DNA from: Anaerolineaceae bacterium
GTDB lineage: Bacteria; Chloroflexota; Anaerolineae; Anaerolineales; Anaerolineaceae
Length of the DNA: 64,000 nucleotides
Assembly: GCA_030653365.1 (NCBI GenBank)
Contig: JAURZL010000011.1
Coordinates: 62,001-126,000, forward strand
Direction of reading: 5' to 3'
Shown: piece by piece, positions 28,688 to 50,670 of the stretch
Position numbering within the stretch: position 1 is the first letter of the stretch
Layout: every line of letters begins with the position of its first letter
Notes under the pieces: model-generated
The model's input: only the letters and a program-made list of their open reading frames with translations
Told to the model about the DNA's origin: nothing
Database searches by the model: none
Translations under genes and position numbers: made by a program

Positions 28688-28921
28688 ATGGTAAACATCA
28701 AAATTTTAGGATCAGGATGTGCAAATTGTAAACGGGTTGAAGCCATGGCCAGAAAGGTTGTGGATACGCTGGGAATTGAAGCAGAAATTGAAAAAGTTAC
28801 AGAAATTGATGAAATCATGAAGTGGCCGATTCTTTCAACACCAGGTCTGGTAATTAATGACAAACTGGTCTCTGCTGGAAGGATCCCCAGTGAATCTGAA
28901 ATCACCGGATGGTTGGGTTAG
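28688..28921 (+). CDS. Small thioredoxin-fold redox-active disulfide protein
   Basis: The 77-residue protein starts VNIKILGSGCANCKRVE, with a CxxC active-site-like motif at residues 11-14, and ends in a TPGLVINDKLVSAGRIPS segment. It matches the small thioredoxin-like family often placed beside ArsP-like permeases. It probably handles thiol transfer or metal(loid) delivery in the cytoplasm. ATG 28688 has a GGGAG ribosome site, and the frame upstream is not used. It lies between arsR and the permease gene. Confidence 0.85.
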   Translation: MVNIKILGSGCANCKRVEAMARKVVDTLGIEAEIEKVTEIDEIMKWPILSTPGLVINDKLVSAGRIPSESEITGWLG

Positions 28922-28989
28922 GATTCCTTAAAATTTTAATCAATTACATTCAATATTTTGAATACAATTTTTATGTAGAGGAATTATTT

Positions 28990-30321
28990 ATGGAACCAAT
29001 TTTCAATTATATTGGAATGTTACTCTGGTCAGGATGGACCGGATTATTAGATTATCTGGCAGCCCATGTTTTGCTTTGCCTTGTGCCAGCATTTGTGATC
29101 GCAGGGTTCATGAGCTCGATGATCCCAAAAGAAGCAATCACCAAGTATTTAGGTCCAAAAGCCAGTAAATGGATCAGTTATCCAGCAGCTTCAATCGGTG
29201 GTTTCATCCTGGCGGTATGTTCCTGTACCATCCTTCCTTTATTTGCTGGTATTTGGAAACGAGGAGCAGGTTTGGGACCTGCGATTACATTTTTGTTTGT
29301 AGGTCCGGCGATCAATATTCTTGCTATCACTTATACCGGAGCAGCGATTGGCTTTGATATTGCAATTGCCCGATTGGTGCTTTCGATCGTTTTCGGTATT
29401 GTAATTGGTCTGAGCATGGCATGGATCTTCCGCAAGGAGGAAGTTAATCGAACAGCTGAAATGGCTGCCAATGGCGTGTTTGACCAGACTGCAAAAGTCA
29501 AACCAGCAGTCTGGGTACTATTCATTTTATTGGTTCTGGTTCTGATTGTTGGCACCCTGCAAATTGATGTGTTGACGAATGTATATGCCAGCATTAATTT
29601 ACCTTTTGATTGGACGTCAGGAGTTGGAAAAGTATTGACAAGTGTCAATTTGACATTTCAGGGTGGTTTGATGATATTCATGTTAATAATCATTGGAATT
29701 GCTGCCTGGAAAGGTTTCGAAACAATTTTTGATGGTTTCAACCGTTGGACCTATGTGGCATTTTCTTTAATAGCTTTAACGATTCTAATCGCTGCACCCA
29801 AAGAAGAGGTTGGCTCATTGGTGATCGGTATCAATGGTCGTTTTATAGGTGAAATCATCCTGTTAGCCAGTGTTGGCACAGTTGCATGGCGATCCTTCAC
29901 AAAAGATGAATTGACCGGGTGGATTTGGGAAACCTGGAAATTCGTGAAACAAATTTTTCCACTCCTGATCATCGGTGTTTTTGCTGCGGGGATTGTCAAA
30001 GTGATCATCCCGGAAGCCTGGGTCAGAACAATTGCCGGACAAAATACAATCTGGGCAAACATGGTGGGTGTAATTTTTGGAGTTTTTATGTACTTCCCAA
30101 CCCTGGTGGAAGTTCCGATTGCAAAGATGTTTTTGGATCTGGGAATGGCGCGTGGTCCGTTGCTTGCCTATCTCCTTTCTGACCCGGAATTATCCCTGCA
30201 ATCCATTTTGGTTTTGAATGGTGTGATGGGTAAGAAGAAAACAGCCATCTATGTATCTCTGGTAGCAGTTATGAGTACACTGGCTGGTTATTTGTTCGGT
30301 TTATTTATTGCCAGTATATAA
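28990..30321 (+). CDS. ArsP-like permease (DUF318 family)
   Basis: The 443-residue polytopic membrane protein has about ten hydrophobic segments. It carries the characteristic VCSCTILPLFAGIWKRGAGLGPAITFLFVGPAINILAI block, in which a CxC pair sits in a helix. ArsP exports trivalent organoarsenicals, while other members act on divalent metals, so the substrate is inferred from the arsenic context. The start at 28990 is chosen for AGAGGAATTATT before it. The 81 bases upstream in frame are not needed. It lies in line with arsR, the CxxC protein and the ACR3 gene. Confidence 0.85.
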   Translation: MEPIFNYIGMLLWSGWTGLLDYLAAHVLLCLVPAFVIAGFMSSMIPKEAITKYLGPKASKWISYPAASIGGFILAVCSCTILPLFAGIWKRGAGLGPAITFLFVGPAINILAITYTGAAIGFDIAIARLVLSIVFGIVIGLSMAWIFRKEEVNRTAEMAANGVFDQTAKVKPAVWVLFILLVLVLIVGTLQIDVLTNVYASINLPFDWTSGVGKVLTSVNLTFQGGLMIFMLIIIGIAAWKGFETIFDGFNRWTYVAFSLIALTILIAAPKEEVGSLVIGINGRFIGEIILLASVGTVAWRSFTKDELTGWIWETWKFVKQIFPLLIIGVFAAGIVKVIIPEAWVRTIAGQNTIWANMVGVIFGVFMYFPTLVEVPIAKMFLDLGMARGPLLAYLLSDPELSLQSILVLNGVMGKKKTAIYVSLVAVMSTLAGYLFGLFIASI

Positions 30322-30347
30322 AGAATGGAAAACCAAATAGAAGACAT

Positions 30348-30536
30348 ATGTATAACCACTTAGAAAGTCCAGAAATCCTTGATGTTACCTATCGGGCTGC
30401 AGAAATACTTCAAGTCAATATGGACCAACCAAAGGATATCTCAAATCAAACAAACTTCAACTGTTCCTGTCCTCGATATACTCAGGAATTTAAAAAATCG
30501 CTGAATAATACGCCAGACCAAGGCATAAAAAATTAA
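30348..30536 (+). CDS. Small hypothetical protein in the ars operon
   Basis: The 62-residue ORF lies between the permease and ACR3 genes with only short gaps, on the same strand. It has a helical N-terminus (LESPEILDVTYRAAEILQ) and a Cys pair in FNCSCPRYTQEF. I do not recognise a family. The Cys pair and its place in the operon hint at metalloid binding, but this is only inference. No strong ribosome site is seen, so its translation is uncertain. Confidence 0.5.
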   Translation: MYNHLESPEILDVTYRAAEILQVNMDQPKDISNQTNFNCSCPRYTQEFKKSLNNTPDQGIKN

Positions 30537-30554
30537 CTAAAGGAGTCATTCATT

Positions 30555-31643
30555 ATGGAACAAAAAAGTGTTACAAAACGATTATCTTTTTTAGACCGCT
30601 ATCTGACATTATGGATTTTCCTGGCAATGGCAATTGGGGTAGGATTGGGATATTTGTTTCCAAAAGCAATTGAATCCCTCAATTCTGCTGTCTCTGTTGG
30701 AGCTACCAATATTCCAATCGCGATTGGACTTATCTTAATGATGTACCCACCGTTGGCGAAAGTTCATTATGATGAATTGGGGAAGGTATTTCGTAACTGG
30801 AAGATATTAGGGCTTTCGTTAATTCAAAACTGGATCATTGGCCCCATTTTGATGTTTTTGTTAGCAATCATCTTCCTGCGTGGTTACCCCGAATATATGT
30901 CCGGGCTAATCCTGATTGGATTGGCACGTTGTATTGCAATGGTGATTGTCTGGAATGAACTAGCCAAAGGTGATACCGATTATGCAGCTGGTCTGGTAGC
31001 ATTTAACAGCATCTTCCAGGTGTTGTTCTTCAGTGTGTATGCCTATGTTTTCATCACCGTGTTGCCCACCTGGTTTGGTATGGAAGGCATCGCCGTGCAA
31101 ATCACCATTGGCGAAATTGCCGAATCTGTATTTATTTATTTAGGTATTCCATTTATCGCTGGCTTTATTACCAATATGGTTCTGACAAGAGTAAAAGGTA
31201 AAGAGTGGTACTACAAAACATTCATGCCTAAAATCAGCCCGGTTACGTTAATTGCTTTATTATTCACGATTCTTGTGATGTTTAGCTTAAAAGGCAATTT
31301 AATCGTTGCAATCCCATTGGATGTGGTTCGAATCGCCATTCCTTTATTGATTTACTTCGTTGTCATGTTCCTGATCAGTTTTGTGATGGGCAAAATCGTT
31401 GGTGCGAATTACCAGCAAACCACCACGCTTTCTTTTACAGCAGCCTCCAATAATTTTGAGCTGGCGATTGCCGTCGCGGTTGCAGTGTTTGGTTTGAGTT
31501 CAGGACAGGCATTTGCTGCCGTGATTGGTCCATTGGTCGAAGTGCCAGTTATGATCGGTCTGGTCAATGTTGCTTTCTGGTTGCAGAAAAAGTTATATAA
31601 AGGTCAATTAATCACGGGTGAACCTAAGCCAGATAGTTGCTAA
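30555..31643 (+). CDS. arsB: ACR3-family arsenite efflux transporter
   Basis: The 362-residue protein has ten membrane segments and the ACR3 signatures. The catalytic Cys lies in [21 protein letters not shown], followed by [17 protein letters not shown]. The helix 9-10 segment is [39 protein letters not shown]. It exports As(OH)3 using the proton gradient. AAGGAG lies upstream of the start. This is the efflux component of the operon. No arsenate reductase gene (arsC) is in the window, so arsenate handling would rely on one elsewhere. Confidence 0.95.
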
Positions 31644-35106: not shown

Positions 35107-36453
35107 TTAGAAGTGAGGGCGGCGAATGTTTTGCTGCAATTTATCGGTGCGCATGGCGATATCGGCTTTATTGAGCAATGTTGCCGGATCGTGCCCGTCC
35201 AGTGGATAGATCGCCCAACCGATCGCCAGCCGAATCTGGATGCGCTGATCCTGTACCTGGATCAATGAACCGACAGAACTGGTGATTTTTTTTATGATAT
35301 CCCCAACCACGTCTGGTTGGTGAATATCCTCGAGCACCAATCCATATTCATTGTCCTGCAAGCGTGCCACAGTATCATCCTCCCTTACGCTGCCGAGCAG
35401 ACGCCTTGCCAATAGAATATCAATCTGTTTTTTCAGTTCAGGAAGAAGGTGTTCATCATAAGGGAAGGAAACAGAGAGCGAGATCAAGACAGCATTACTC
35501 TGCCTGCGTTTCATACGCGCGAGCGCATGTCGCAATCGGTCGATAAAAATGGCGCGTAAAGGAATTTCAGTGTTGGGGTCGTACAAAGGACCGGTGGGTG
35601 GTCTCAACGGACGGGTCTGGAATGGTTTAGGGATTTTCCCAGCCAGACTACCGGTATCAATCCGCTCAATCGGCTGATTATTGAGAATTTGTGTATACAA
35701 AATCTGGGTTTCCGATGAGGGTTCAATGCCCAATTCACGTGAGATGATTGATTTACATAGCTGGTACTGCTGCAGCGCAGCGTTACGGCGGCCACTGATC
35801 GTCATCAGGCGCATCAACAAGCGGTGAGCACTCTCTTCGAGTGGAGCCAATTCCACATAACGCCAGGCATATTTATTTGCCAGGTCGAAATCCGAGCGGC
35901 GAAAGTATGCTTTGCTGAGTGACTGCAGCGTGATTAGCATATTACGAAAATGGCGTTCCCGTTGGAAAATTGCCCATTCCTGGAAACTGGTCAGCTCACC
36001 GAGCATCAAGTTGTTGAGAAAATCCCCCCGGTATAGATTGACAGATTCTTCCAGATGGTTGAGACAGTCCTGGCAGGTGTGCAGCTCGATGTGCGGGTGT
36101 TTTTTGCTCTCCTGAATATGCTGATTGAAGGCTTGTGAATCCACCCAGACTTGCTGGTGGTTAAATTCAACTGTCTCATCGTTGATCTCAAGGAAGCAAT
36201 CCAGAGTTTCTTCTCCGCCAAAAGCTTTACGCAATCCCAAAAAAGCCTGGCGCAGATTCATACGGGCGTAAGTTTCCGGGCGGTTTGGCCAGAAGAACTC
36301 GGCAATTTTTTCACGGGTTTGCAGGCGCGCTGGCTCTTCTGCCAGGTACGCCAACAGGGCACGTTCTTTACGTGTCCGTAAAGAATCGCTGATATCGGTA
36401 CCGTCGAACTGTACCCGGAAGTTGCCGAGAAGGAAAATTTCGAGTCTGATCAT
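35107..36453 (-). CDS. BTAD/SARP-type transcriptional regulator fused to a degenerate GGDEF domain
   Basis: The 448-residue protein has an N-terminal OmpR-like winged helix (LGNFRVQFDGTDI...TRKERALLAYLAEEP, about 1-95). A BTAD helical domain (about 120-260) follows, with LYRGDFLNNL and RRNAALQQYQLCKSIISRELGIEPSSET. The C-terminal domain (about 295-445) looks like GGDEF, but its signature is QDNEY in DDTVARLQDNEYGLVLEDI, so it cannot be an active cyclase. It may bind c-di-GMP or a partner. It is divergent from the small protein and cytochrome cluster, with direct repeats between that fit a SARP site. Confidence 0.85.
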   Translation of the reverse strand: MIRLEIFLLGNFRVQFDGTDISDSLRTRKERALLAYLAEEPARLQTREKIAEFFWPNRPETYARMNLRQAFLGLRKAFGGEETLDCFLEINDETVEFNHQQVWVDSQAFNQHIQESKKHPHIELHTCQDCLNHLEESVNLYRGDFLNNLMLGELTSFQEWAIFQRERHFRNMLITLQSLSKAYFRRSDFDLANKYAWRYVELAPLEESAHRLLMRLMTISGRRNAALQQYQLCKSIISRELGIEPSSETQILYTQILNNQPIERIDTGSLAGKIPKPFQTRPLRPPTGPLYDPNTEIPLRAIFIDRLRHALARMKRRQSNAVLISLSVSFPYDEHLLPELKKQIDILLARRLLGSVREDDTVARLQDNEYGLVLEDIHQPDVVGDIIKKITSSVGSLIQVQDQRIQIRLAIGWAIYPLDGHDPATLLNKADIAMRTDKLQQNIRRPHF

Positions 36454-36554: not shown

Positions 36555-36788
36555 ATGCATGAGCAAAATATTAATTATTTCTCTTACTTGTTGAGGATTT
36601 GGAAAGACAGCGTTGACGGAGAATGGCACGCATCGTTACAGGATGTCGTCAGCGGGGAATGCCACCATTATCCGACTCTGTATGAATTATATGTCAATTT
36701 ATGGGAGTTGACCAGCGAAAATGTCAATCATCCCCAGCGGAACCCATTCGAGCCGTTTCAGGCGCAATATTTAAAAAAGGTGGAATAG
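36555..36788 (+). CDS. Small conserved hypothetical protein
   Basis: The 77-residue product has the pattern SYLLRIWKDSVDGEWHASLQDVVSGECHHYPTLYELYVNLWEL. I recognise it as a type of small Chloroflexota protein (LLRLWR...W-AS-LEDP-TGE..F-SLE-L-F-L) often beside SARP or surface genes. Its function is unknown. It is the first gene rightward of the SARP-type operator and sits directly before the Asp-box protein. Confidence 0.65.
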   Translation: MHEQNINYFSYLLRIWKDSVDGEWHASLQDVVSGECHHYPTLYELYVNLWELTSENVNHPQRNPFEPFQAQYLKKVE

Positions 36789-42045: not shown

Positions 42046-43410
42046 ATGAGTCTGGATATCTTAAAACCACTGCGAGAAGGATTTCTCCAACGGGAAGAAC
42101 CGGCAACAGAATTACCGACCCGGGAAAACCATGTGAGAAATAACCTGATCCTGCACCTGCATCCCAGCCGGGTACCGGCGCGCGCGCTGCGCTTTTCCTA
42201 CACCTGGGGGCTGGGCGGGATCTCTGTCGTGCTGGTGGTATTACTGGGACTGACCGGTCTGCTGTTGATGTTCCGCTACGACCCGCGCGTGGAATACGCG
42301 TATGTCAGCATTCAACAACTGGAGACCGAGGTGATGTTCGGATCCTTTATCCGGGCCGTGCACCACTGGTCAGCCAATTTTTTGGTAATCACCACCTTCT
42401 TACACCTGGTAAGGGTTTTCCTGACCGGGTCTTATAAACAGGGAAGAGGCGTAAACTGGATCATCGGTTTGGTCTTGTTTGTGATTGTATTGGCGGGTAA
42501 TTTCACCGGCTATTTGTTGCCGTGGGATCAACTCTCTTATTGGGCGATCACAGTCAGCACCAGCTTGATGGCTTACATCCCACTGCTCGGGACGGCAGTG
42601 CGGAACTTCTTCCTCGGCGGACCTCAGGTTGGTCAGGCAGCCTTGAGTAATTTTTACGCATTGCATGTGGTCTTCATGCCTGCATTGATGCTGGGCTTTC
42701 TGGCGTACCACCTGTGGAAGGTGCGCAAGAATGGCGGCATCTCGCAGCCTTTGCTCAAAGAGGATGAAAAACCGGAGTTTAAATCGACCAATCCACATCT
42801 GGTCAATATTGAACTGGCAGCCGGACTGGTGGTCCTGGTATTCGTCGGGTTGTGGGCGATGTTCAACCCGGCACCGTTGGGATCAATCGCCAGTCCGCTG
42901 GTGTCCCCCAATCCTGCTAAAGCTGCCTGGTACTTCCTGGGCTTGCAGGAGTTGCTACTGCATATGCACCCGTTATCTGCGATGTTTTTGATTGGGCTGG
43001 TAGGGGTTGCACTTGTCGGGACACCGCTGGTCGACCGTAGCGATCGGGATATTGGCATTTACTTTCGCACTGCGATCGGACGGCGTGCAGCTGTGTTTGG
43101 CGCTTTATTAGCGCTCTATCTGGTTCCAATTGCGGTCATTTTGGACGAATTCTGGTACGATCTGCCAGGCTGGTTGCCGAATGTGCATACCAATGTGACG
43201 GTGGGCGTGATTCCCTTTGTGATCACACTATTGGTTTTTGTTGGCGTTTACTTCCTCTTACGCAGTGGTTGGTTATTTAAGAATGAAAAAACCAATCACA
43301 GTGAAGCGATGGTAGGCATCTTTGCATTCATCATGAACGGACTGATCTTATTAACAATTGTTGGTATTCACTTCCGCGGCCAGAATATGGCGCTGGTGTT
43401 GCCGTTTTAA
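42046..43410 (+). CDS. Fused cytochrome b (b6/subunit IV) of a bc-type complex
   Basis: The 454-residue membrane protein has the cytochrome b N-terminal part. Its haem-ligand His are in HHWSAN and FLHLVRVF on one helix and in HVVFMPALMLGFLAYHLW on the other. The C-terminal subunit-IV-like part contains PAKAAWYFLGLQELLLHMHPL. It oxidises quinol together with the Rieske protein that follows 18 bases later. No cytochrome c1 or f gene is present, so a multihaem protein is the likely partner. Codon use and GC look higher here than in the flanking genes. Confidence 0.9.
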   Translation: MSLDILKPLREGFLQREEPATELPTRENHVRNNLILHLHPSRVPARALRFSYTWGLGGISVVLVVLLGLTGLLLMFRYDPRVEYAYVSIQQLETEVMFGSFIRAVHHWSANFLVITTFLHLVRVFLTGSYKQGRGVNWIIGLVLFVIVLAGNFTGYLLPWDQLSYWAITVSTSLMAYIPLLGTAVRNFFLGGPQVGQAALSNFYALHVVFMPALMLGFLAYHLWKVRKNGGISQPLLKEDEKPEFKSTNPHLVNIELAAGLVVLVFVGLWAMFNPAPLGSIASPLVSPNPAKAAWYFLGLQELLLHMHPLSAMFLIGLVGVALVGTPLVDRSDRDIGIYFRTAIGRRAAVFGALLALYLVPIAVILDEFWYDLPGWLPNVHTNVTVGVIPFVITLLVFVGVYFLLRSGWLFKNEKTNHSEAMVGIFAFIMNGLILLTIVGIHFRGQNMALVLPF

Positions 43411-43428
43411 TCATCTGGGAGCAGTGAC

Positions 43429-43953
43429 ATGAAAAAGAAAAACATTCAAAATCCTGAGAAGGACGAGTTAACCACACCTAAAAATGTGAGTCGCCGTGAT
43501 TTTTTAGGCATCAGCCTGAAGGCACTCGGCGGGTTGGCGGCCATCGAACTGGGAGCTGCCGGAATTCTCTTCTTGCGCACACGCAGTGCATCCGGTGAAT
43601 TTGGCGGAATGATGACCATCGGAAAGATCGTAGAATTCACTCCGGGGTCTGTGGTGGAAGTGGAAGATGGCAATTTCTACCTGATTTGTACTGAGGACAG
43701 CGGTTTTATGGCAGTTTACCGGCGTTGCCCACATCTGGGTTGCATGGTCAAGTGGATGGACAATGAACAAAAATTCCTTTGCCCGTGCCACTCTGCTACA
43801 TTTGATAAAACTGGGGATTTCCATAATAAACTGGTGGCACGTGCACTCGACTATTTCCCGGTCACATTTGACAAGGGCATGGTCAAAGTGAACACCACTG
43901 CACCGATTGTTCGGGAGCAGCATTTACCCGAGCACATCAGTTACCCAGGATAG
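43429..43953 (+). CDS. Rieske [2Fe-2S] protein of a bc-type complex
   Basis: The 174-residue protein has an N-terminal Tat-like segment (SRRDFLGISLKALGGLAAIELGAAGILFL) serving as the membrane anchor. The cluster-binding motifs are CPHLGC and CPCHSATF, with the two Cys and two His ligands. It accepts an electron from quinol at the cytochrome b site and passes it on. It lies directly after the cytochrome b gene. No separate c1-type subunit follows; the next gene is a cytochrome c with a class I domain. Confidence 0.92.
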   Translation: MKKKNIQNPEKDELTTPKNVSRRDFLGISLKALGGLAAIELGAAGILFLRTRSASGEFGGMMTIGKIVEFTPGSVVEVEDGNFYLICTEDSGFMAVYRRCPHLGCMVKWMDNEQKFLCPCHSATFDKTGDFHNKLVARALDYFPVTFDKGMVKVNTTAPIVREQHLPEHISYPG

Positions 43954-43978
43954 ATAGGGAGCAGAAGGAGGATACAAG

Positions 43979-44893
43979 ATGGATAAAACCAAACTCATCA
44001 GCCTGGCAGCCCTGTTTGTCCTGGTAATTGCTTTGCCAGTGTATGGATTTCTGGAAAAGGGCCGCATGCAACAGGCAAAAGCAGCTTTGGATGACCGCTA
44101 CATGATGGAAGGAATTGAGATTTATGTACAGAATTGTGTTGGCTGTCATGGCAATGCTGGGGAAGGTGTTGGGATGATTCCGGGGTTGAACCGTGAAGCA
44201 TTAATCGAAGCACGCTCGGATCTTTTGTTCAAATCGATTGCGCGTGCGACGCATGGCAATGCGATGGCTTCCTGGCATATAAATGAAGGTGGCATTCTGA
44301 GCGATTACCAGCTCAATGAAGTGGTGACAATGATCCAGAAGGCGGACTGGATGGTGGTTGCCCAGGTGGCAGCCGTACGGGGTGCCAGTCAGCCGATTGT
44401 TGCAGCAGGAGAAGGTGGGGTGACTTTTATGAATGTTGAAGATCTGGATGATCCCCATCATTGCGCCAGCTGCCACGAAGAACCAGAGATTCACGCGGAC
44501 TTGTTTGGCATCAACTGCGCGCGCTGTCATAGTGCTTCTGCCTGGAAACCAGCTGTTCTTACCAGCCATATCTTCCTGCTGGATCATGGCGGCGAAGGCG
44601 AGGTTGCCTGCCAGACCTGCCACCCGGCAAAATATGGCGTCTATGATTGCTATGCCTGCCATGAGGATCACCAGTACGAAGAGATGAAGGAAGTGCATCT
44701 GGCGGAGGATATCAAAGAGTTCGATACCTGTGCTACCTGCCATCCAACCGGAGTGGAAGGTGAAGCAGGGAGACTGATCGAAGAGAATCCTGGATTGAAA
44801 TATCCTTTGAGCCTGGAGGAAAAAGCCAGTTTGCTGAAAGATGCGGGTTTATTAAGTATAAATCAGACCTCTGTGGAGGTTATAAAACCATGA
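43979..44893 (+). CDS. Hexahaem cytochrome c: class I domain plus pentahaem module
   Basis: The 304-residue protein has an N-terminal signal anchor. A class I cytochrome domain follows, with CVGCH (about 53-57) and a later Met-containing AMASWH segment. The C-terminal half has five more CxxCH sites: CASCH, CARCH, CQTCH, CYACH and CATCH. The C-terminal module resembles that of the next gene. AAGGAGG lies before ATG 43979. Following directly on the b and Rieske genes, I infer that it replaces cytochrome c1 as electron acceptor and links to the larger cytochromes. It is outside the membrane. Confidence 0.9.
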   Translation: MDKTKLISLAALFVLVIALPVYGFLEKGRMQQAKAALDDRYMMEGIEIYVQNCVGCHGNAGEGVGMIPGLNREALIEARSDLLFKSIARATHGNAMASWHINEGGILSDYQLNEVVTMIQKADWMVVAQVAAVRGASQPIVAAGEGGVTFMNVEDLDDPHHCASCHEEPEIHADLFGINCARCHSASAWKPAVLTSHIFLLDHGGEGEVACQTCHPAKYGVYDCYACHEDHQYEEMKEVHLAEDIKEFDTCATCHPTGVEGEAGRLIEENPGLKYPLSLEEKASLLKDAGLLSINQTSVEVIKP

Positions 44894-44953
44894 TTTTGAT
44901 GTTTTGTGCTGGAATAAACAATTGCCTGGGGAGGCAGCACAGGAAGGAGGGCT

Positions 44954-46132
44954 ATGCTTAAGCGATTTTGGCTCAGGCAGTGCAGGTGGGTGCGTGTCAT
45001 CATTATTTTTTGTCTGGTATTAATAGCCAGTGGCGCTTATTATGTTAAATCTTACGCGTCTTATCTGCTCAGCCCGGGTGAATTATCCACGATGCAATCT
45101 AATAATGAGATGCTGGGTGGTGTCAAATCACACGCAGAATTGGAACGCCAGTGTTCGCATTGCCACGCTCCCATTCACTGTGTGACCGACTCGCGTTGTC
45201 AGGATTGCCATTTCGAGATCGAACAGGACCGGTTGGATGTCAACACCATTCATGGACGATTACCCGGTGTGACTAAATGTCAGACCTGTCACCCTGAACA
45301 CCAGGGACATGATGCCGATCTGACGGTTTTTGCTTTTCCAAATATTGATCATTATGCAATGACCGGGTTCAGTATCAAAGCACATGTCACCAATATTGAT
45401 GGCAAAAAATTCACCTGTACCACCTGTCATACCAAGGTACGCGACATTATTGAAACCATTGATTGCGTTCACTGTCATTCAACAGAGAATCATGATGATC
45501 TGGCTGCCCACATAGAAGAATATGGAATTGGCTGTGTGCAATGCCATGATGGCCAGGACCGCATGATTGTTGGCTTTGATCATGAGCCATTCTTTGCCTT
45601 GCAGGATGGACATCAGGATATCGCCTGTGCAGATTGCCATGCCGAGAAACAATATGTGGGGATTGGTACCACCTGTAGTAATTGTCATGCCGAGCCGGAG
45701 TTACATGCCGGTGTGTTTGGCACTTCGTGTGATTACTGCCATAGCGTGCAGGCCTGGTCGCCAGCGGTTCTCACGCGGCATACATTTGAGTTGAAACATG
45801 GTGATGAAGAAGTTACTACCTGCGAGACCTGTCATGGTGGCAATTACACAGAATATCCGTGCTATACCTGCCATGAAAATGAAGATATGGTTGTGGCACA
45901 TGATCCGCTGGGTATTTTCGAGTTGAGTAATTGTATTGAATGTCATCCTACCGGTCGTGGTAAGGCTGAAATGCCTGGCTTACAGACGGGTGAGACCAAG
46001 CGGATTGGTATCTCTGGCAGTGGATCAGCGACGATTGAACCTGAAATTATCGTAACACCACCTGTTTTGTGGAAACAACCAACCGTAAGACCGGTTCAAC
46101 AGCAGAATCAGGGACCGGAAAGTAACCCATGA
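44954..46132 (+). CDS. Dodecahaem cytochrome c
   Basis: The 392-residue protein has an N-terminal membrane anchor (VRVIIIFCLVLIASGAYYV). Twelve CxxCH motifs were counted: CSHCH, CQDCH, CQTCH, CTTCH, CVHCH, CVQCH, CADCH, CSNCH, CDYCH, CETCH, CYTCH and CIECH. The C-terminal five-haem segment parallels the pentahaem module of the previous gene (CHAEPELH, CHSVQAWSPAVLTRH, CHPTG). AGGAGG is found before the start. It is anchored outside the membrane and probably conducts electrons between the hexahaem protein and the very large cytochromes. Confidence 0.9.
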   Translation: MLKRFWLRQCRWVRVIIIFCLVLIASGAYYVKSYASYLLSPGELSTMQSNNEMLGGVKSHAELERQCSHCHAPIHCVTDSRCQDCHFEIEQDRLDVNTIHGRLPGVTKCQTCHPEHQGHDADLTVFAFPNIDHYAMTGFSIKAHVTNIDGKKFTCTTCHTKVRDIIETIDCVHCHSTENHDDLAAHIEEYGIGCVQCHDGQDRMIVGFDHEPFFALQDGHQDIACADCHAEKQYVGIGTTCSNCHAEPELHAGVFGTSCDYCHSVQAWSPAVLTRHTFELKHGDEEVTTCETCHGGNYTEYPCYTCHENEDMVVAHDPLGIFELSNCIECHPTGRGKAEMPGLQTGETKRIGISGSGSATIEPEIIVTPPVLWKQPTVRPVQQQNQGPESNP

Positions 46133-46166
46133 TCAGGAAAGTACAGAAACTATTTGTCCAGAAAGG

Positions 46167-48344
46167 ATGGGTAGAATGAAAAAAGGAATAAAAATACTGA
46201 TAGCGCTCAATGCCGTGATGTTTTTGGTGCTGGCAGGGCTGCTGTTTTTGGCTGAGACATATCCTTTTCGACCGGGACATCCATTGTTTCCTTTGCAAAG
46301 TACAGCGGAAAGCAGCCGATTAAAACTGGCGAAAGATCCGGAACAAAGGGTTGAAATGAGTTTTGAACTGGTGGAGCGGCGTCTGGCTGACCTGGCGATG
46401 ATCGATAATCCAGAAAATGTTCAGCCGGCTGTTGAGGCATTTGATCGTGTATTAACCCAGGCCATTCTTAGCATTCAACTGGTTACCGAAGAACAAGCCA
46501 ATCAACATTATCAGGCTGTGCAGACGTTATTATTGCAAGCAGACATTGTACTGGCATCGGTGGAAGAGACAATGGATCATGAGCAAATAACAGCATTACA
46601 CGAGAAGATAGCGATTTTGCAGTCTGCTACCACCCCGCTCGAGATTCAACAACTGGCATCGGTTCATACCTTACCGTCGATTATATCCCCCAAAGCAATT
46701 CCATTCCTTGGAAAGGATGTAGACCATATCGATTTCACTTTGACAGATGGACACGATGGTCTCGAATGTGAAGATTGCCACGCCGATGGGGTCTATGTTG
46801 AAACTTCAACTGACTGCTCCAGCTGCCATGTACGTAAAGATGTGTTGGCATTGCTTTTAGAAAGTGATGATTATTCCATAAAACGCAGTGAGAAAGCATA
46901 TGTAAATCATTTCCAGGGTGAATGTTCGGATTGTCACATTGCGGTTACCTGGGAACCCGAAGAGTTTGATCATGAAGGTGTGTATGAGTGTATTTCCTGC
47001 CATTATGATAGTTATCCGGAAGAAGAACAGTTAGCGGTTGGTCCATTCAGTTTTATTGGTCTTGGTCAGAAAAAAGTGAATACCATGGTAGGAGCACATT
47101 ACCAGGGAGATTGTATCGATTGCCATTCAGATACTGAGGATTGGGCAGAATATGAGTATGAGCATCAATTCTCAAATTGTATGAGTTGTCATGAAGATCA
47201 GATTGCATTATTGAGCCTAAGTTCCTGGATGTCAGAATGTAACAGTGATCAGACCTGCCAGACCTGTCATACCTACGATCAACACAAAGACAAGTACGGA
47301 GATGAGTGTGCGAATTGTCATAAAAATTTTGAAAAATGGCTCCCGGCTGAGGTTGACCATGAACAATTCCCCAATTGTCTGACCTGCCATGAAAATGACA
47401 GGCCGGAGAAAGATCATTATAAGAGTAATTGCAGCACCTGTCATATTACAGGAAACTGGAAGACTCTTTCACTTGAACACACATCTTCCGCGGATTGCAG
47501 ATCCTGCCATCAACCTCCCATCACTCACCGGGCAGGACAATTTGTGGGGCAATGCAGCACCTGTCATGGAACCAAGGTTTGGTATCGAACGATTTTTAAT
47601 CACACCATGAGCAATTGCAGCAACTGTCACGCCAGCCCTGTAAACCATTATCCGGCTGCCTGCAGTAGTTGTCATGTTTCCAATTCATGGTTGAAGATAA
47701 ATGTCAACCATTCCGGCATGAATGTATGTACGCATTGTCACACTGCCAATGCCAACCATTATGCAGGGTTGTGTACGGATTGTCATAATACAACTACCTG
47801 GGCCAGTACAACTTATCATAATAGCTTTACGACATCGTGCGGAAACTGCCATATTTCACCGATTGGTCATTATCCGGGAACCTGTGAGTCTTGTCATAAG
47901 AACACCTCGAATTGGAGTTCTTCTTTCTCTCATTCGATGACGAGTCTGACCTGCAGCACCTGTCATCCAGCACCGAAAGGTCACTGGACAGGTGAGTGCT
48001 CAAAATGTCATGTCACTTCATCCTGGTCACAAGTGACCTTTGACCACACCGGATTTTCGCTGTGTAATTCCTGCCATGTGCGCCCCGTGGGGCATCCACG
48101 TGGGCAGTGTTCGAATTGCCATAACACGACTACCTGGTATGTACCACCGACACCAACACCACTGCCAACGAGTACGCCGATCCCAACAGCAACACCAGTT
48201 CCGACAGCAACACCTGAACCAACGGCAACACCAGAACCAACTGCGGAACCGACTGATGAACCCACAGCGGAACCTACAGAAGAACCCACAGAAGAACCGA
48301 CTGAGGAACCAACAGAAGAACCGACTGAAGAACCAACAGGGTAA
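46167..48344 (+). CDS. 22-haem cytochrome c with DUF5667-like N-terminus and Pro/Thr/Glu tail
   Basis: The 725-residue protein has an N-terminal membrane helix (about 5-24). A DUF5667-like helical domain follows (YPFRPGHPLFPLQSTAESSRLKLAKDPEQR..., about 30-150). Then 22 CxxCH motifs occur from about residue 195 to 650. In the second half they form a repeating unit of two haems, with C-x2-CH-x4-HY and a Trp. The C-terminal 50 residues are repeats of PTP, EPT and TEEP. The tail may span the cell wall. The next gene is a paralogue. AAGGA precedes ATG 46167. Confidence 0.9.
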   Translation: MGRMKKGIKILIALNAVMFLVLAGLLFLAETYPFRPGHPLFPLQSTAESSRLKLAKDPEQRVEMSFELVERRLADLAMIDNPENVQPAVEAFDRVLTQAILSIQLVTEEQANQHYQAVQTLLLQADIVLASVEETMDHEQITALHEKIAILQSATTPLEIQQLASVHTLPSIISPKAIPFLGKDVDHIDFTLTDGHDGLECEDCHADGVYVETSTDCSSCHVRKDVLALLLESDDYSIKRSEKAYVNHFQGECSDCHIAVTWEPEEFDHEGVYECISCHYDSYPEEEQLAVGPFSFIGLGQKKVNTMVGAHYQGDCIDCHSDTEDWAEYEYEHQFSNCMSCHEDQIALLSLSSWMSECNSDQTCQTCHTYDQHKDKYGDECANCHKNFEKWLPAEVDHEQFPNCLTCHENDRPEKDHYKSNCSTCHITGNWKTLSLEHTSSADCRSCHQPPITHRAGQFVGQCSTCHGTKVWYRTIFNHTMSNCSNCHASPVNHYPAACSSCHVSNSWLKINVNHSGMNVCTHCHTANANHYAGLCTDCHNTTTWASTTYHNSFTTSCGNCHISPIGHYPGTCESCHKNTSNWSSSFSHSMTSLTCSTCHPAPKGHWTGECSKCHVTSSWSQVTFDHTGFSLCNSCHVRPVGHPRGQCSNCHNTTTWYVPPTPTPLPTSTPIPTATPVPTATPEPTATPEPTAEPTDEPTAEPTEEPTEEPTEEPTEEPTEEPTG

Positions 48345-48444
48345 ACTGATCCAAGTGAGTCTTAATAAATCAATAATAACACCCGATTGGCTCGATTTAT
48401 TGAATTAAAACAAAATTTCCTTGTGGAATTTAGGGTAGGGACGG

Positions 48445-48473
48445 GTAGGGGTGGTTTCTGAAACCACCCCTAC
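48445..48473. repeat. Family B palindromic repeat, perfect hairpin
   Basis: GTAGGGGTGGTTT (48445-48457) and AAACCACCCCTAC (48461-48473) form a perfect 13-bp stem with a three-base loop. It lies between the 22- and 24-haem genes and may be a terminator or mRNA-stabilising element. Confidence 0.75.
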
Positions 48474-48576
48474 GAAAACAACCATGAAAGGAGGTGGTTT
48501 TTTTAAAAATTTAATTTATAATATAAATAACAATTGAATAGGGACGGGGCTTACATTATCATGAAGGACGTGATCA

Positions 48577-50670
48577 ATGAAAAGTACAGGAAAAGTACTA
48601 TTAGCCCCCATTGTTACAATTTTATTGGTAATAACATTATTTTATTTAGTGATAAAAATTCACCCTTACAAACCAGGTGATCCTTTTTTCAAATATCAAA
48701 ACGCGGTCGAATATAGCTGGGCCAAATTTATACTTTCCCCTGAAAAACGAGTGGAAGTATATTTTGATCTGGTTGAACATCGATTAAAGGATCTGGCATC
48801 TCTTGATCGAATGGATTATGTCAGACCAACCATTGAAGCTTTTGATCAAGCCGTATCAAAAGCAATTCAGAGTATTCAATTATTGGATTGGGATAATGCT
48901 GTCATTTATTATCACAATGTACAACCGCTCATGCGAAGGGTTGAGATTGTTATCGAAGATCTTTCGGACAGAATGTATCACCAGGATCTGGCAATTCTTC
49001 AACATAAGGCAGAGTATCTAAAAACTGCGAAAACTTCTACTGAAATTATAAAAACTGGGGCTACCCAATATTCTTCGTTTCATGTCAGTGAACCTGAATC
49101 ACCAGAGATTATGGTGAAAGAGGAATTTGTAGATATTAAACCAAAAGAAATTTCATTTGAAACACAAAAAAGATCCAACTGTATGAATTGCCATCAGGAT
49201 GGACTCTATATGGATCCTGATTCCAGGTGTTCCAATTGCCACCTACGAGAGACATATTTTATGGTGAAGTTGGGAACGGATGGGTATAGACCAGTAAAAT
49301 TTGCAGAAAAATATCCATTCCATTTTGTGGGAGATTGTAGTAATTGTCACACTACCAAAAGTTGGATGATTGAAGCATTCGAACATCCATATGCATACTC
49401 GTGCATCATCTGCCACGAGAATAATATTCCAGAGTTGGATCAAAAGCCGCTCGATCAGATATTTCTAACCGGATCAGGACGAAAAATAAATACGAATGAT
49501 ACTTCTCATTATCCATTGGATTGTATTCATTGTCACAAAAACACCAGTAGCTGGAGTGATTATTCTTACGATCATCAGCAAGACACATGCAGCAGGTGCC
49601 ACGACAAGGACGAGCGATTTATTCGTTATACCTTAAATGGGATTCGTTGTAATAGGGAACAGAATTGCCAAAATTGCCACACGTATGACAGGCATAAGGC
49701 TAATTATGGTGAAACCTGTTATGAATGTCATCAGAATGTAAATAATTGGTTAGATGTATCTATCAATCATGAAAAATTTACCTCCTGTCGATCCTGCCAC
49801 GATAGCGACAAACCTGATACGCATCAATATAAGAGCGATTGTAATGTTTGTCATTCGACTGTCGACTGGAAAAAAATGTTGTTTGATCATTCCAGCACTT
49901 CCAATTGTATATCCTGCCATACAGCACCAGGTGACCATCTGAGCAAGGGGTATACAGATCAGTGCAGCACCTGTCACAGTATTTATATATGGGAAAAAGC
50001 GTTATTTCATCAAGTGATGAGTAACTGTACGAACTGTCATACCAGCCCTGAGAACCATTATCCTGCCTTATGCACAAGTTGTCATGATACCAACAACTGG
50101 AAAAATATATCCGTCAATCATACAGAGTTAAGTGCATGCACGAATTGTCACAGCGTACCTGTAAATCATTATCCAGCAGCCTGCATCAGTTGTCACAATA
50201 CTTCATCATGGATAACTATTAGCGTGAATCACACAGGTCTGACAGCGTGTTCAAGTTGCCATACTGCACCCAGTAATCATTATCCAGGAAATTGTCAGAC
50301 GTGTCATAATACAAATTCATGGGAACCACAAAATTATCATAATGATTCGACGACAGCTTGTGGAAACTGTCATTCAGCGCCAGCAATCCACTATCCTTTA
50401 GCGTGTGAGGTATGCCACAAAACGACAACCAGCTGGAATGCGGTTTACGATCATTCTGTAACAAGCCTTGCTTGCAGCACCTGTCACTTGCGGCCAGCTG
50501 ATCATTGGATAGGCGAATGTTCCAATTGTCATGTTACCTCCTTCTGGGATCAAGTCGATTTTGACCACAGTGGCTATACCGATTGCAAATCCTGTCATAC
50601 CAGTCCACAGGGTCATCCCGGAGCGCAATGTTCTCGCTGCCATACTACAGATACTTGGGAAGTACCGTAA
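48577..50670 (+). CDS. 24-haem cytochrome c, paralogue of the upstream gene
   Basis: The 697-residue protein has an N-terminal membrane helix (about 6-26) and a DUF5667-like domain (HPYKPGDPFFKYQNAVEYSWAK..., about 28-150). It carries 24 CxxCH motifs from about residue 204 to the C-terminus, with the same two-haem repeat and NHYP elements as its neighbour, but no Pro/Thr/Glu tail. Family B repeats flank the gene. Codon use is visibly more AT-rich than in the upstream gene. TATAAT at 48517-48522 and AAGGA before the start suggest separate transcription. Confidence 0.9.
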   Translation: MKSTGKVLLAPIVTILLVITLFYLVIKIHPYKPGDPFFKYQNAVEYSWAKFILSPEKRVEVYFDLVEHRLKDLASLDRMDYVRPTIEAFDQAVSKAIQSIQLLDWDNAVIYYHNVQPLMRRVEIVIEDLSDRMYHQDLAILQHKAEYLKTAKTSTEIIKTGATQYSSFHVSEPESPEIMVKEEFVDIKPKEISFETQKRSNCMNCHQDGLYMDPDSRCSNCHLRETYFMVKLGTDGYRPVKFAEKYPFHFVGDCSNCHTTKSWMIEAFEHPYAYSCIICHENNIPELDQKPLDQIFLTGSGRKINTNDTSHYPLDCIHCHKNTSSWSDYSYDHQQDTCSRCHDKDERFIRYTLNGIRCNREQNCQNCHTYDRHKANYGETCYECHQNVNNWLDVSINHEKFTSCRSCHDSDKPDTHQYKSDCNVCHSTVDWKKMLFDHSSTSNCISCHTAPGDHLSKGYTDQCSTCHSIYIWEKALFHQVMSNCTNCHTSPENHYPALCTSCHDTNNWKNISVNHTELSACTNCHSVPVNHYPAACISCHNTSSWITISVNHTGLTACSSCHTAPSNHYPGNCQTCHNTNSWEPQNYHNDSTTACGNCHSAPAIHYPLACEVCHKTTTSWNAVYDHSVTSLACSTCHLRPADHWIGECSNCHVTSFWDQVDFDHSGYTDCKSCHTSPQGHPGAQCSRCHTTDTWEVP

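Follow-up and report, generated by a model that had tools for sequence, protein, structure and literature searches.

Multihaem Rieske/cytochrome b complexes are already known from other organisms, and large multihaem cytochromes of the lineage studied here are in print (PMC7399161; this and the following papers are cited from the accessible part of their text). Here, we describe a run of genes found in a stretch of 64,000 nucleotides (the window) from an Anaerolineaceae bacterium of the phylum Chloroflexota (assembly GCA_030653365.1, contig JAURZL010000011.1, positions 62,001 to 126,000 of the forward strand; C18 in our numbering of an assembly of 4.5 Mb in 20 contigs). The run encodes two surface-type proteins, a cytochrome b, a Rieske protein and four multihaem cytochromes c. 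This module is conserved and well-bounded. Judging from the protein sequences, it probably encodes a Rieske/cytochrome b complex whose dedicated role is to carry electrons from quinol in the membrane out of a cell with a single membrane.

The ext cluster of Geobacter (extHIJKLMNOPQS, GSU2940-GSU2930) encodes the cytochrome b ExtP, the Rieske protein ExtO and cytochromes with 4, 5, 10 and 12 haems, and has been proposed as a link from quinol to the periplasm (PMC5877670, PMC2825233). Like the window, it joins a cytochrome b, a Rieske protein and multihaem cytochromes in one cluster. However, the ext cluster as described also has a porin (ExtI), a rhodanese-like protein and separate ExtP and ExtQ, whereas the system of the window displays a single-chain cytochrome b, a cytochrome that fuses class I and c7 parts, surface-type proteins and 22- to 37-haem proteins. 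Membership in the Geobacter Ext group was rejected, since the cytochrome b scored 268.5 bits against the ExtP model (cut-off 290) and the run has no porin; the score against the ExtQ model was 43.6 bits (cut-off 150). Membership in the porin-cytochrome complexes was rejected as well, because an outer-membrane beta-barrel porin was not found in the run. No porin family was detected among the ten proteins scanned with Pfam and NCBIfam models, which is what would be expected of a monoderm cell.

In the anammox bacterium Kuenenia, the Rieske/b complexes Kuste4569-4574 and Kustd1480-1485 have a hexa- or octahaem cytochrome c in place of cytochrome f (PMC12954380). The module shares this replacement of f by a multihaem cytochrome c, and its Rieske protein found its top solved-structure matches in Kuenenia Rieske proteins (9rk4 and 9rk3, at only 52 bits; identity confirmed in PMC12954380). 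The Kuenenia complexes differ in two components that the run lacks, a putative NAD(P) oxidoreductase and separate proteins resembling subunit IV (Pfam and NCBIfam scans found no NAD(P) oxidoreductase subunit among its eight genes), and the accessible text names no large surface cytochromes for them. The cluster MPEBLZ_00816-00823 of Methanoperedens combines Rieske/b genes with two pentahaem cytochromes at similar expression levels; it is archaeal, has been proposed to feed a nitrate reductase, and no 12- to 37-haem protein is described in the accessible text (PMC4683180). Rieske/b complexes with multihaem partners have also been proposed for Caldithrix (PMC5317091).

Closer to the window, Anaerolineales from a bioanode and from Japanese deep boreholes encode large multihaem cytochromes, in which haem motifs were gained or lost pairwise, and no porin complex was found in them (PMC7399161). 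Both features are shared by the module. In contrast, the accessible text mentions no linked cytochrome b/Rieske genes, hexahaem fusion or surface-protein genes, and the words "Rieske" and "cytochrome b" have zero occurrences in its main text. Multihaem proteins were counted in the Horonobe genomes (PMC5520028). Meanwhile, a Chloroflexi genome is described with two cytochrome b-Rieske complexes, an alternative complex III and a 24-haem cytochrome, with no mention of linkage in the accessible text (PMC3971608). Searches of accessible literature text returned no description of this gene set, and the available text of PMC6295460, PMC10052568 and PMC11495043 held nothing bearing on it.

The gene run and its hexahaem cytochrome

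The initial annotation had described six genes on the forward strand (42046-50670), from the cytochrome b to the last cytochrome, with 6, 12, 22 and 24 CxxCH motifs in the four cytochromes, 64 in all. A direct re-count returned the same positions, strand and haem numbers (Table 1). Shuffled controls (500 per cytochrome) contained on average 0.02 to 0.25 CxxCH motifs, with a maximum of 3, and scans of the four cytochromes for CxxxCH, CxxxxCH and CxxCK found none. The six genes stand, but not the boundary drawn around them: the unit starts at 36701 rather than at 42046, as genes for a choice-of-anchor O protein and an FG-GAP repeat protein, omitted from that set, are conserved upstream together with the remainder. 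The first seven genes are separated by gaps of 18-68 bp (68, 24, 18, 25, 60 and 34 bp, in order), and the gap between the 22- and 24-haem genes is 232 bp. Every cytochrome c of the run has an N-terminal hydrophobic anchor. In the Pfam scan, Cytochrom_C matched residues 44-89 of the hexahaem protein, with c7/c3-type families elsewhere.

To place the hexahaem protein, we compared the run with ordinary Chloroflexota complexes. A search of the phylum with a cytochrome b profile matched 246 of 400 genomes (E 1e-40 or better), and 16 ordinary loci were examined, taken from 15 of those genomes plus the second cytochrome b of genus genome G141. A three-haem cytochrome adjoins cytochrome b in 14 of the 16, the exceptions being L131, with two two-haem genes, and L132, with one one-haem gene; none of the 16 loci contained an open reading frame (ORF) with more than three CxxCH motifs. 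The N-terminal 140 residues of the hexahaem protein matched all 14 three-haem proteins tested (13 of the 14 adjoining ones, with L121 left out, plus that of L046) at E 6.1e-40 or better. Its C-terminal part gave only two matches to these proteins, at E 0.0021 and 0.0031, whereas an alignment of residues 162-274 with the C-terminal part of the 12-haem protein showed 49% identity in 113 positions (E 4e-30). The ordinary loci share a homologous cytochrome b, Rieske protein and N-terminal class I domain with the module, but their three-haem protein ends in two further class I domains and has no five-haem c7-like domain.

The simplest reading is that the hexahaem protein arose when the anchored class I domain of the old third subunit became fused to a five-haem module also found in the 12-haem protein: its N-terminal part keeps the anchor and first class I domain of the third subunit, and the remaining five haems have homologous counterparts in a portion of the 12-haem protein. 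The initial annotation had stated that a c1/f gene is absent and had offered the class I domain as its substitute. None was indeed found, and the homology to the c-type third subunit supports the substitution; what needs amending is the notion of an absence, as the first 140 residues are homologous to the third subunit of other Chloroflexota. Gene order and the protein fusion likewise agree with the earlier suggestion that a quinol-oxidising module is tied to a multihaem chain. Genome G141 holds both types, the ordinary form at L134 and the fused form at L026.

Ligand-type residues of the cytochrome b and the Rieske protein are conserved. In alignments of six rows, H106, H120, H207 and H222 of the cytochrome b are invariant; we take these to be the haem ligands, with spacings of 14 and 15, the latter b6f-like. 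The top solved-structure matches of this protein were cytochromes b6. The motif PEWY, of which variants are known, marks the quinol-oxidising site; it was not found in the cytochrome b, where PAKAAWYF stands in 6/6 genus rows and in eight three-haem-type rows. A pattern search at the PEWY position had no match in 9 of 24 cytochrome b rows and was not used to exclude family membership. In the Rieske protein, the ligand motifs C100-P-H102 and C118-P-C-H121 are invariant (six rows). In the hexahaem alignment (six rows), eight non-motif histidines and Met96, which lies in the class I domain, are invariant.

In a first tree of 23 cytochrome b rows (L132, 251 amino acids (aa), left out by length), one branch separated the seven multihaem-type rows from all others (96/94), and the Rieske tree gave the same division (83/81). 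Second trees added L161 and L173, and L186 for cytochrome b, and omitted L131 and L132; L123, L129 and L132, where no Rieske ORF was shown, have no row in the Rieske trees. The multihaem type of the Rieske protein again lay on one side (96/93). A single origin of the Rieske protein and of the hexahaem fusion is likely.

The downstream cytochromes are densely packed with haems: in the cores of the 12-, 22- and 24-haem proteins there is one haem for every 20-22 residues. Beyond the anchor, these proteins carry 17, 27 and 27 non-motif histidines, respectively. In the 12-haem family (five rows), 12/12 motif histidines and 15 non-motif histidines are invariant. Such invariant non-motif histidines, and Met96 of the hexahaem protein, would serve as axial ligands. 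The second half of the large cytochromes consists of two-haem repeats of about 37 residues in series, and the haem numbers 22, 24 and 26 are accounted for by whole additional repeats of this kind. The 22- and 24-haem proteins, listed as separate cytochromes in the initial annotation, are tandem paralogues and not distinct stages of the chain (40% identity over 698 aligned positions), the 24-haem protein having one two-haem repeat more and lacking the Thr/Pro/Glu-rich tail. Nor does the 24-haem gene hold as a member of the conserved set, since a second large cytochrome occurs in only two of the five genus loci visible to that end, the window and L023 (26 haems). The DUF5667 region of the 22-haem protein scored 26.6 bits, just below the cut-off of 27.

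Searched against solved structures, the large-cytochrome profile gave eight weak matches, the best at E 1e-05 (6r2q_A and 3ouq_A), followed by HmcA-type and small tetrahaem proteins; none of the eight was named as an Omc filament (OmcS, OmcE or OmcZ). Entry 6r2q_A is labelled cystathionine beta-synthase in the table, yet the alignment shows a multihaem chain, and 6r2q is presumably the MtrCAB complex. Matches of the large cytochromes to the Pfam MtrC/MtrF domain and to NCBIfam HmcA were weak and below cut-off.

Conservation across the genus and class

The module occurs in six of the eight genus genomes searched (its own, G141, G142, G143, G145 and G146, the last cut by contig ends), and no cytochrome b match was found in the other two, G140 and G144. 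Its order in the genus is choice-of-anchor O, FG-GAP, cytochrome b, Rieske, 6-haem, 12-haem and a 22- or 24-haem protein. The alignments of choice-of-anchor O, the 12-haem protein and the large cytochromes do not include locus L024, which is cut by contig ends. Genomes named HGW-Chloroflexi-2, -3 and -10, where HGW presumably stands for Horonobe groundwater, hold the module. The lineage is very probably the same as that of the Anaerolineales with large cytochromes mentioned above (PMC7399161).

Matches to the 12-haem protein were found in 16 of the 147 genomes of the family, and a search of the class with the 12-haem profile matched 50 of 396 at E 1e-25 or better, the window's own genome included. 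From 14 of those 50, we examined 16 stretches, with absences re-checked on all frames of at least 70 aa. The cytochrome b, Rieske protein and six-haem fusion occur together in three loci outside the genus. L161 has a 29-haem large protein and a changed gene order; L163 (same contig as L045, Zodletone) has a 23-haem protein, and FG-GAP was not found there; L173 has a 27-haem protein, and a separate 12-haem protein was not found. Among the 14 class genomes searched for full-length fusions, G784, G846 and G850 were the only ones to show them, and the loci of these three carry cytochrome b/Rieske genes. The initial annotation had set conservation in relatives as a check on the cluster; the genus and these three loci keep it, and a one-genome oddity was ruled out.

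Four further loci (L159, L160, L162 and L164) hold genes for choice-of-anchor O, FG-GAP, a 12-haem protein and a 25- to 37-haem protein, while eight (L165-L172) hold the 12-haem protein with no choice-of-anchor O, FG-GAP, cytochrome b or Rieske gene. The contig of L160 stops inside choice-of-anchor O and that of L174 inside the 12-haem gene. In G810, G862, G874 and G819, where the module occurs without cytochrome b/Rieske genes, other proteins match the class I part of the hexahaem protein only.

In several of L165-L172, the neighbouring genes resemble, judged by eye, those for the flavoprotein and membrane protein at L034. The latter locus lies on contig C15 of the window's own genome (L034:10000-15172) and encodes 15- and 14-haem cytochromes, then a Pyr_redox_2 flavoprotein, then a 266-aa membrane-type protein for which the Pfam scan gave no match. 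A 15-haem cytochrome paired with a 16- or 20-haem one was also seen in L027, L029, L031 and L033. In a different family of this class, an ORF of 1082 aa with 44 CxxCH motifs lies near a 12-haem protein (L170:3466-6714, genome G805).

Proposed electron path and alternatives

We propose that the cytochrome b and Rieske protein would oxidise quinol in a Q-cycle with proton translocation, an activity suggested by their families and by the invariant ligand-type residues. From the Rieske centre, electrons would reach the class I haem of the hexahaem protein; by homology and position, this protein takes the place of the ordinary three-haem cytochrome. The five-haem module would covalently join the complex to the first link of a chain from the hexahaem to the 12-haem and on to the 22- or 24-haem protein. 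Finally, the large cytochromes and the two surface-type proteins would span and cover the cell wall and offer electrons to an insoluble or partner acceptor. The input to this chain would be modular, as the surface-type proteins, 12-haem and 25-37-haem proteins also occur in four loci away from any nearby cytochrome b/Rieske pair. The outward direction, the acceptor and the location of the proteins are predictions. Acceptors of moderately high potential, for example Fe(III)/Mn(IV) oxides and poised electrodes, go well with a Rieske centre and a His/Met class I haem, and these would suit the module. More tentatively, the module may be a self-contained respiratory outlet of single-membrane bacteria: a Rieske/b complex replumbed by fusion, its c-subunit the first bead of a wall-crossing chain whose core is interchangeable between electron inputs, conserving energy at the quinol step in mineral, electrode or interspecies respiration, with no porin.

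Since the run encodes a true Rieske/cytochrome b pair and the genome a terminal oxidase, the complex might serve as an ordinary complex III in oxygen (or nitrate) respiration, its multihaem proteins merely bulky carriers to the terminal oxidase. The oxidase is of the COX1 family (CtaD model 590.6 bits, below the cut-off of 670.75); its subunit II, of CoxB type, scored above cut-off and contains a single CxxCH. However, it lies on contig C14 and the cluster on C18, and COX1-family matches were present in all eight genus genomes, against six with cytochrome b. The two others, like the window's own genome, have alternative complex III-type operons. The own operon, on contig C16, encodes two-haem and five-haem cytochromes, molybdopterin-like and ferredoxin-like proteins, NrfD, ActD (above the Pfam cut-off) and a one-haem protein; G144 has homologues of all seven genes together, and G140 has ActA-, ActB-, ActC-, ActD- and ActE-like genes, some of them distant (ActD E 1.8e-08). 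No ActABCDE-type operon is in the cluster itself. NrfD-family matches and the cytochrome c assembly family PF01578 were found in 8/8 genus genomes. Oxygen respiration therefore need not depend on the cluster, which looks like a second quinol outlet; aerobic complex III was rejected as its role on these counts, and we hold the ordinary complex III in general to be distinctly improbable.

Quinone reduction uphill through a Rieske/b complex requires a proton gradient, which counts against electrons from a mineral, cathode or partner entering by the large cytochromes and reaching quinone through the Rieske/b complex. Such inward flow appears improbable to us, even if the sequence leaves direction unfixed and the Chloroflexota isolate Ardenticatena maritima gives current in both directions, anodic and cathodic (PMC5808234). 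It is also unlikely that one of the cytochromes reduces a soluble acceptor, or that the set stores electrons, with no surface function. The 12-haem profile weakly matches the ammonia-forming nitrite reductase 8bcx (E 0.0014), and multihaem charge stores have been proposed elsewhere (mentioned in PMC7399161). Against this, no CxxCK or other unusual haem motif was among those counted, no Pfam or NCBIfam model of a soluble-substrate reductase reached its cut-off for the four cytochromes, and the conserved neighbours are surface-type proteins. The initial annotation had named matches to known reductases with defined soluble substrates as an outcome that would refute it; none reached a cut-off, leaving the 8bcx match as the sole, weak hit. 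A nitrite-reductase-like enzyme was rejected, with that match alone and no CxxCK.

Several observations weigh against export of quinol electrons by the module, or against the arguments for it. No cytochrome b or Rieske gene is in view in L159, L160, L162 and L164, nor in a further 19 kb beside L159 (L190). These four loci suggest that the surface-type proteins and haem chain are the core and the Rieske/b input optional, so that quinol input would not be the sole use of the core. In the second cytochrome b tree (25 rows), the multihaem type needed two changes, with a single change in 4% of 200 bootstrap trees, and the single clade seen with 23 rows was dropped. Among the large cytochromes (seven rows), 14 non-motif histidines are invariant, compared with 22 invariant haem motifs, and an AlphaFold2 model of the 22-haem protein (seven-row alignment; mean pLDDT 38.8, pTM 0.26) was unusable. 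The presumed co-transcription of the run has gene spacing as its single pointer. In 5 of 14 genomes (G026, G024, G201, G612 and G538), choice-of-anchor O stands without any further gene of the module in view. As for the C16 operon, its putative alternative complex III role is suggested by ActD and gene order, and the closest NCBIfam models for two of its subunits were QrcB and QrcA, below cut-off.

A quinol-driven outlet of this kind would bear on how single-membrane Chloroflexota exchange electrons with the outside. CymA-, ImcH- and CbcL-type quinol oxidases are usually cited for the quinol step of electron export; if our proposal is true, export starts here, unlike in those systems, at a Q-cycle-type enzyme. 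Seven or eight candidate genes can be named, and the fusion points to a way in which electrons from a Rieske/b complex might enter a multihaem chain. Natural controls exist in the two sister genomes without the module and in G141, with its ordinary and fused forms.

Surface-type proteins, regulator candidate and neighbouring genes

Table 1. Genes of the module and adjoining regulator candidate (window coordinates)
Feature	Coordinates	Strand	Evidence
Divergent regulator candidate, BTAD and GGDEF domains; outside the electron path	35107..36453	-	Pfam; Trans_reg_C weakly
Choice-of-anchor O surface-type protein, 1225 aa	36701..40378	+	NF040591, 645.1 bits (cut-off 125)
FG-GAP repeat surface-type protein, 524 aa	40447..42021	+	PF01839, six stretches, 3.3e-39
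Cytochrome b, 454 aa, b6 and subunit-IV parts on one chain	42046..43410	+	Cytochrome_B (PF00033), 153 bits
Rieske 2Fe-2S protein, 174 aa, N-terminal RR motif	43429..43953	+	Rieske (PF00355), 37.5 bits (cut-off 20.3)
Hexahaem cytochrome, anchor, class I domain (1 haem) and five-haem c7/c3-like domain	43979..44893	+	Pfam
12-haem cytochrome, 392 aa, N-terminal hydrophobic anchor	44954..46132	+	12 CxxCH
22-haem cytochrome, 725 aa, N-terminal anchor, DUF5667-like region, C-terminal Thr/Pro/Glu-rich tail	46167..48344	+	22 CxxCH
24-haem cytochrome, 697 aa, without tail, paralogue of the 22-haem protein	48577..50670	+	24 CxxCH

The true start of the choice-of-anchor O protein is possibly near residue 59, and a hydrophobic segment spans residues 63-86; the FG-GAP protein has an N-terminal hydrophobic segment as well. 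Their C-termini read IFLPLTTK and IFLPLVQR, respectively. Across the module's choice-of-anchor O and FG-GAP proteins, all 29 complete ends follow one pattern, in which an aromatic residue or His (in one case Met) precedes Leu/Val/Ile, Pro and a mostly hydrophobic remainder, and which may be a surface-sorting signal.

Choice-of-anchor O matches were found in 14 of 392 class genomes, and above cut-off in 4 of 400 genomes of an even phylum sample. Module genes adjoin the match in nine of the 14 (G000, which is the window's own genome, G784, G810, G819, G846, G850, G862, G870 and G834); in G846 the gene is divided between two contigs, and in G834 it stands with FG-GAP, plus a cytochrome b at the contig end. 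The association with the module is frequent, not exclusive.

A homologue of the BTAD/GGDEF regulator candidate adjoins the module in L022, L023, L025 and L026, making 5/5 genus loci that show that side, the window included. Proteins matching part of this candidate were also seen near choice-of-anchor O in L162, L164, L173, L174 and L189.

Scans of the window for tRNA genes and Rfam families gave zero matches. Promoter-like matches numbered 42 against 29.0 expected, many of them inside the cytochrome genes on the opposite strand, and terminator-like matches 15 against 11.3 expected; neither count is informative. About 5 kb from the module (28909-31643), an ArsP_1 permease adjoins a transporter of the SBF family, of which Acr3 is a member, making this a possible arsenic locus. 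After these two genes come an FKBP protein and then a dCache-type histidine kinase.

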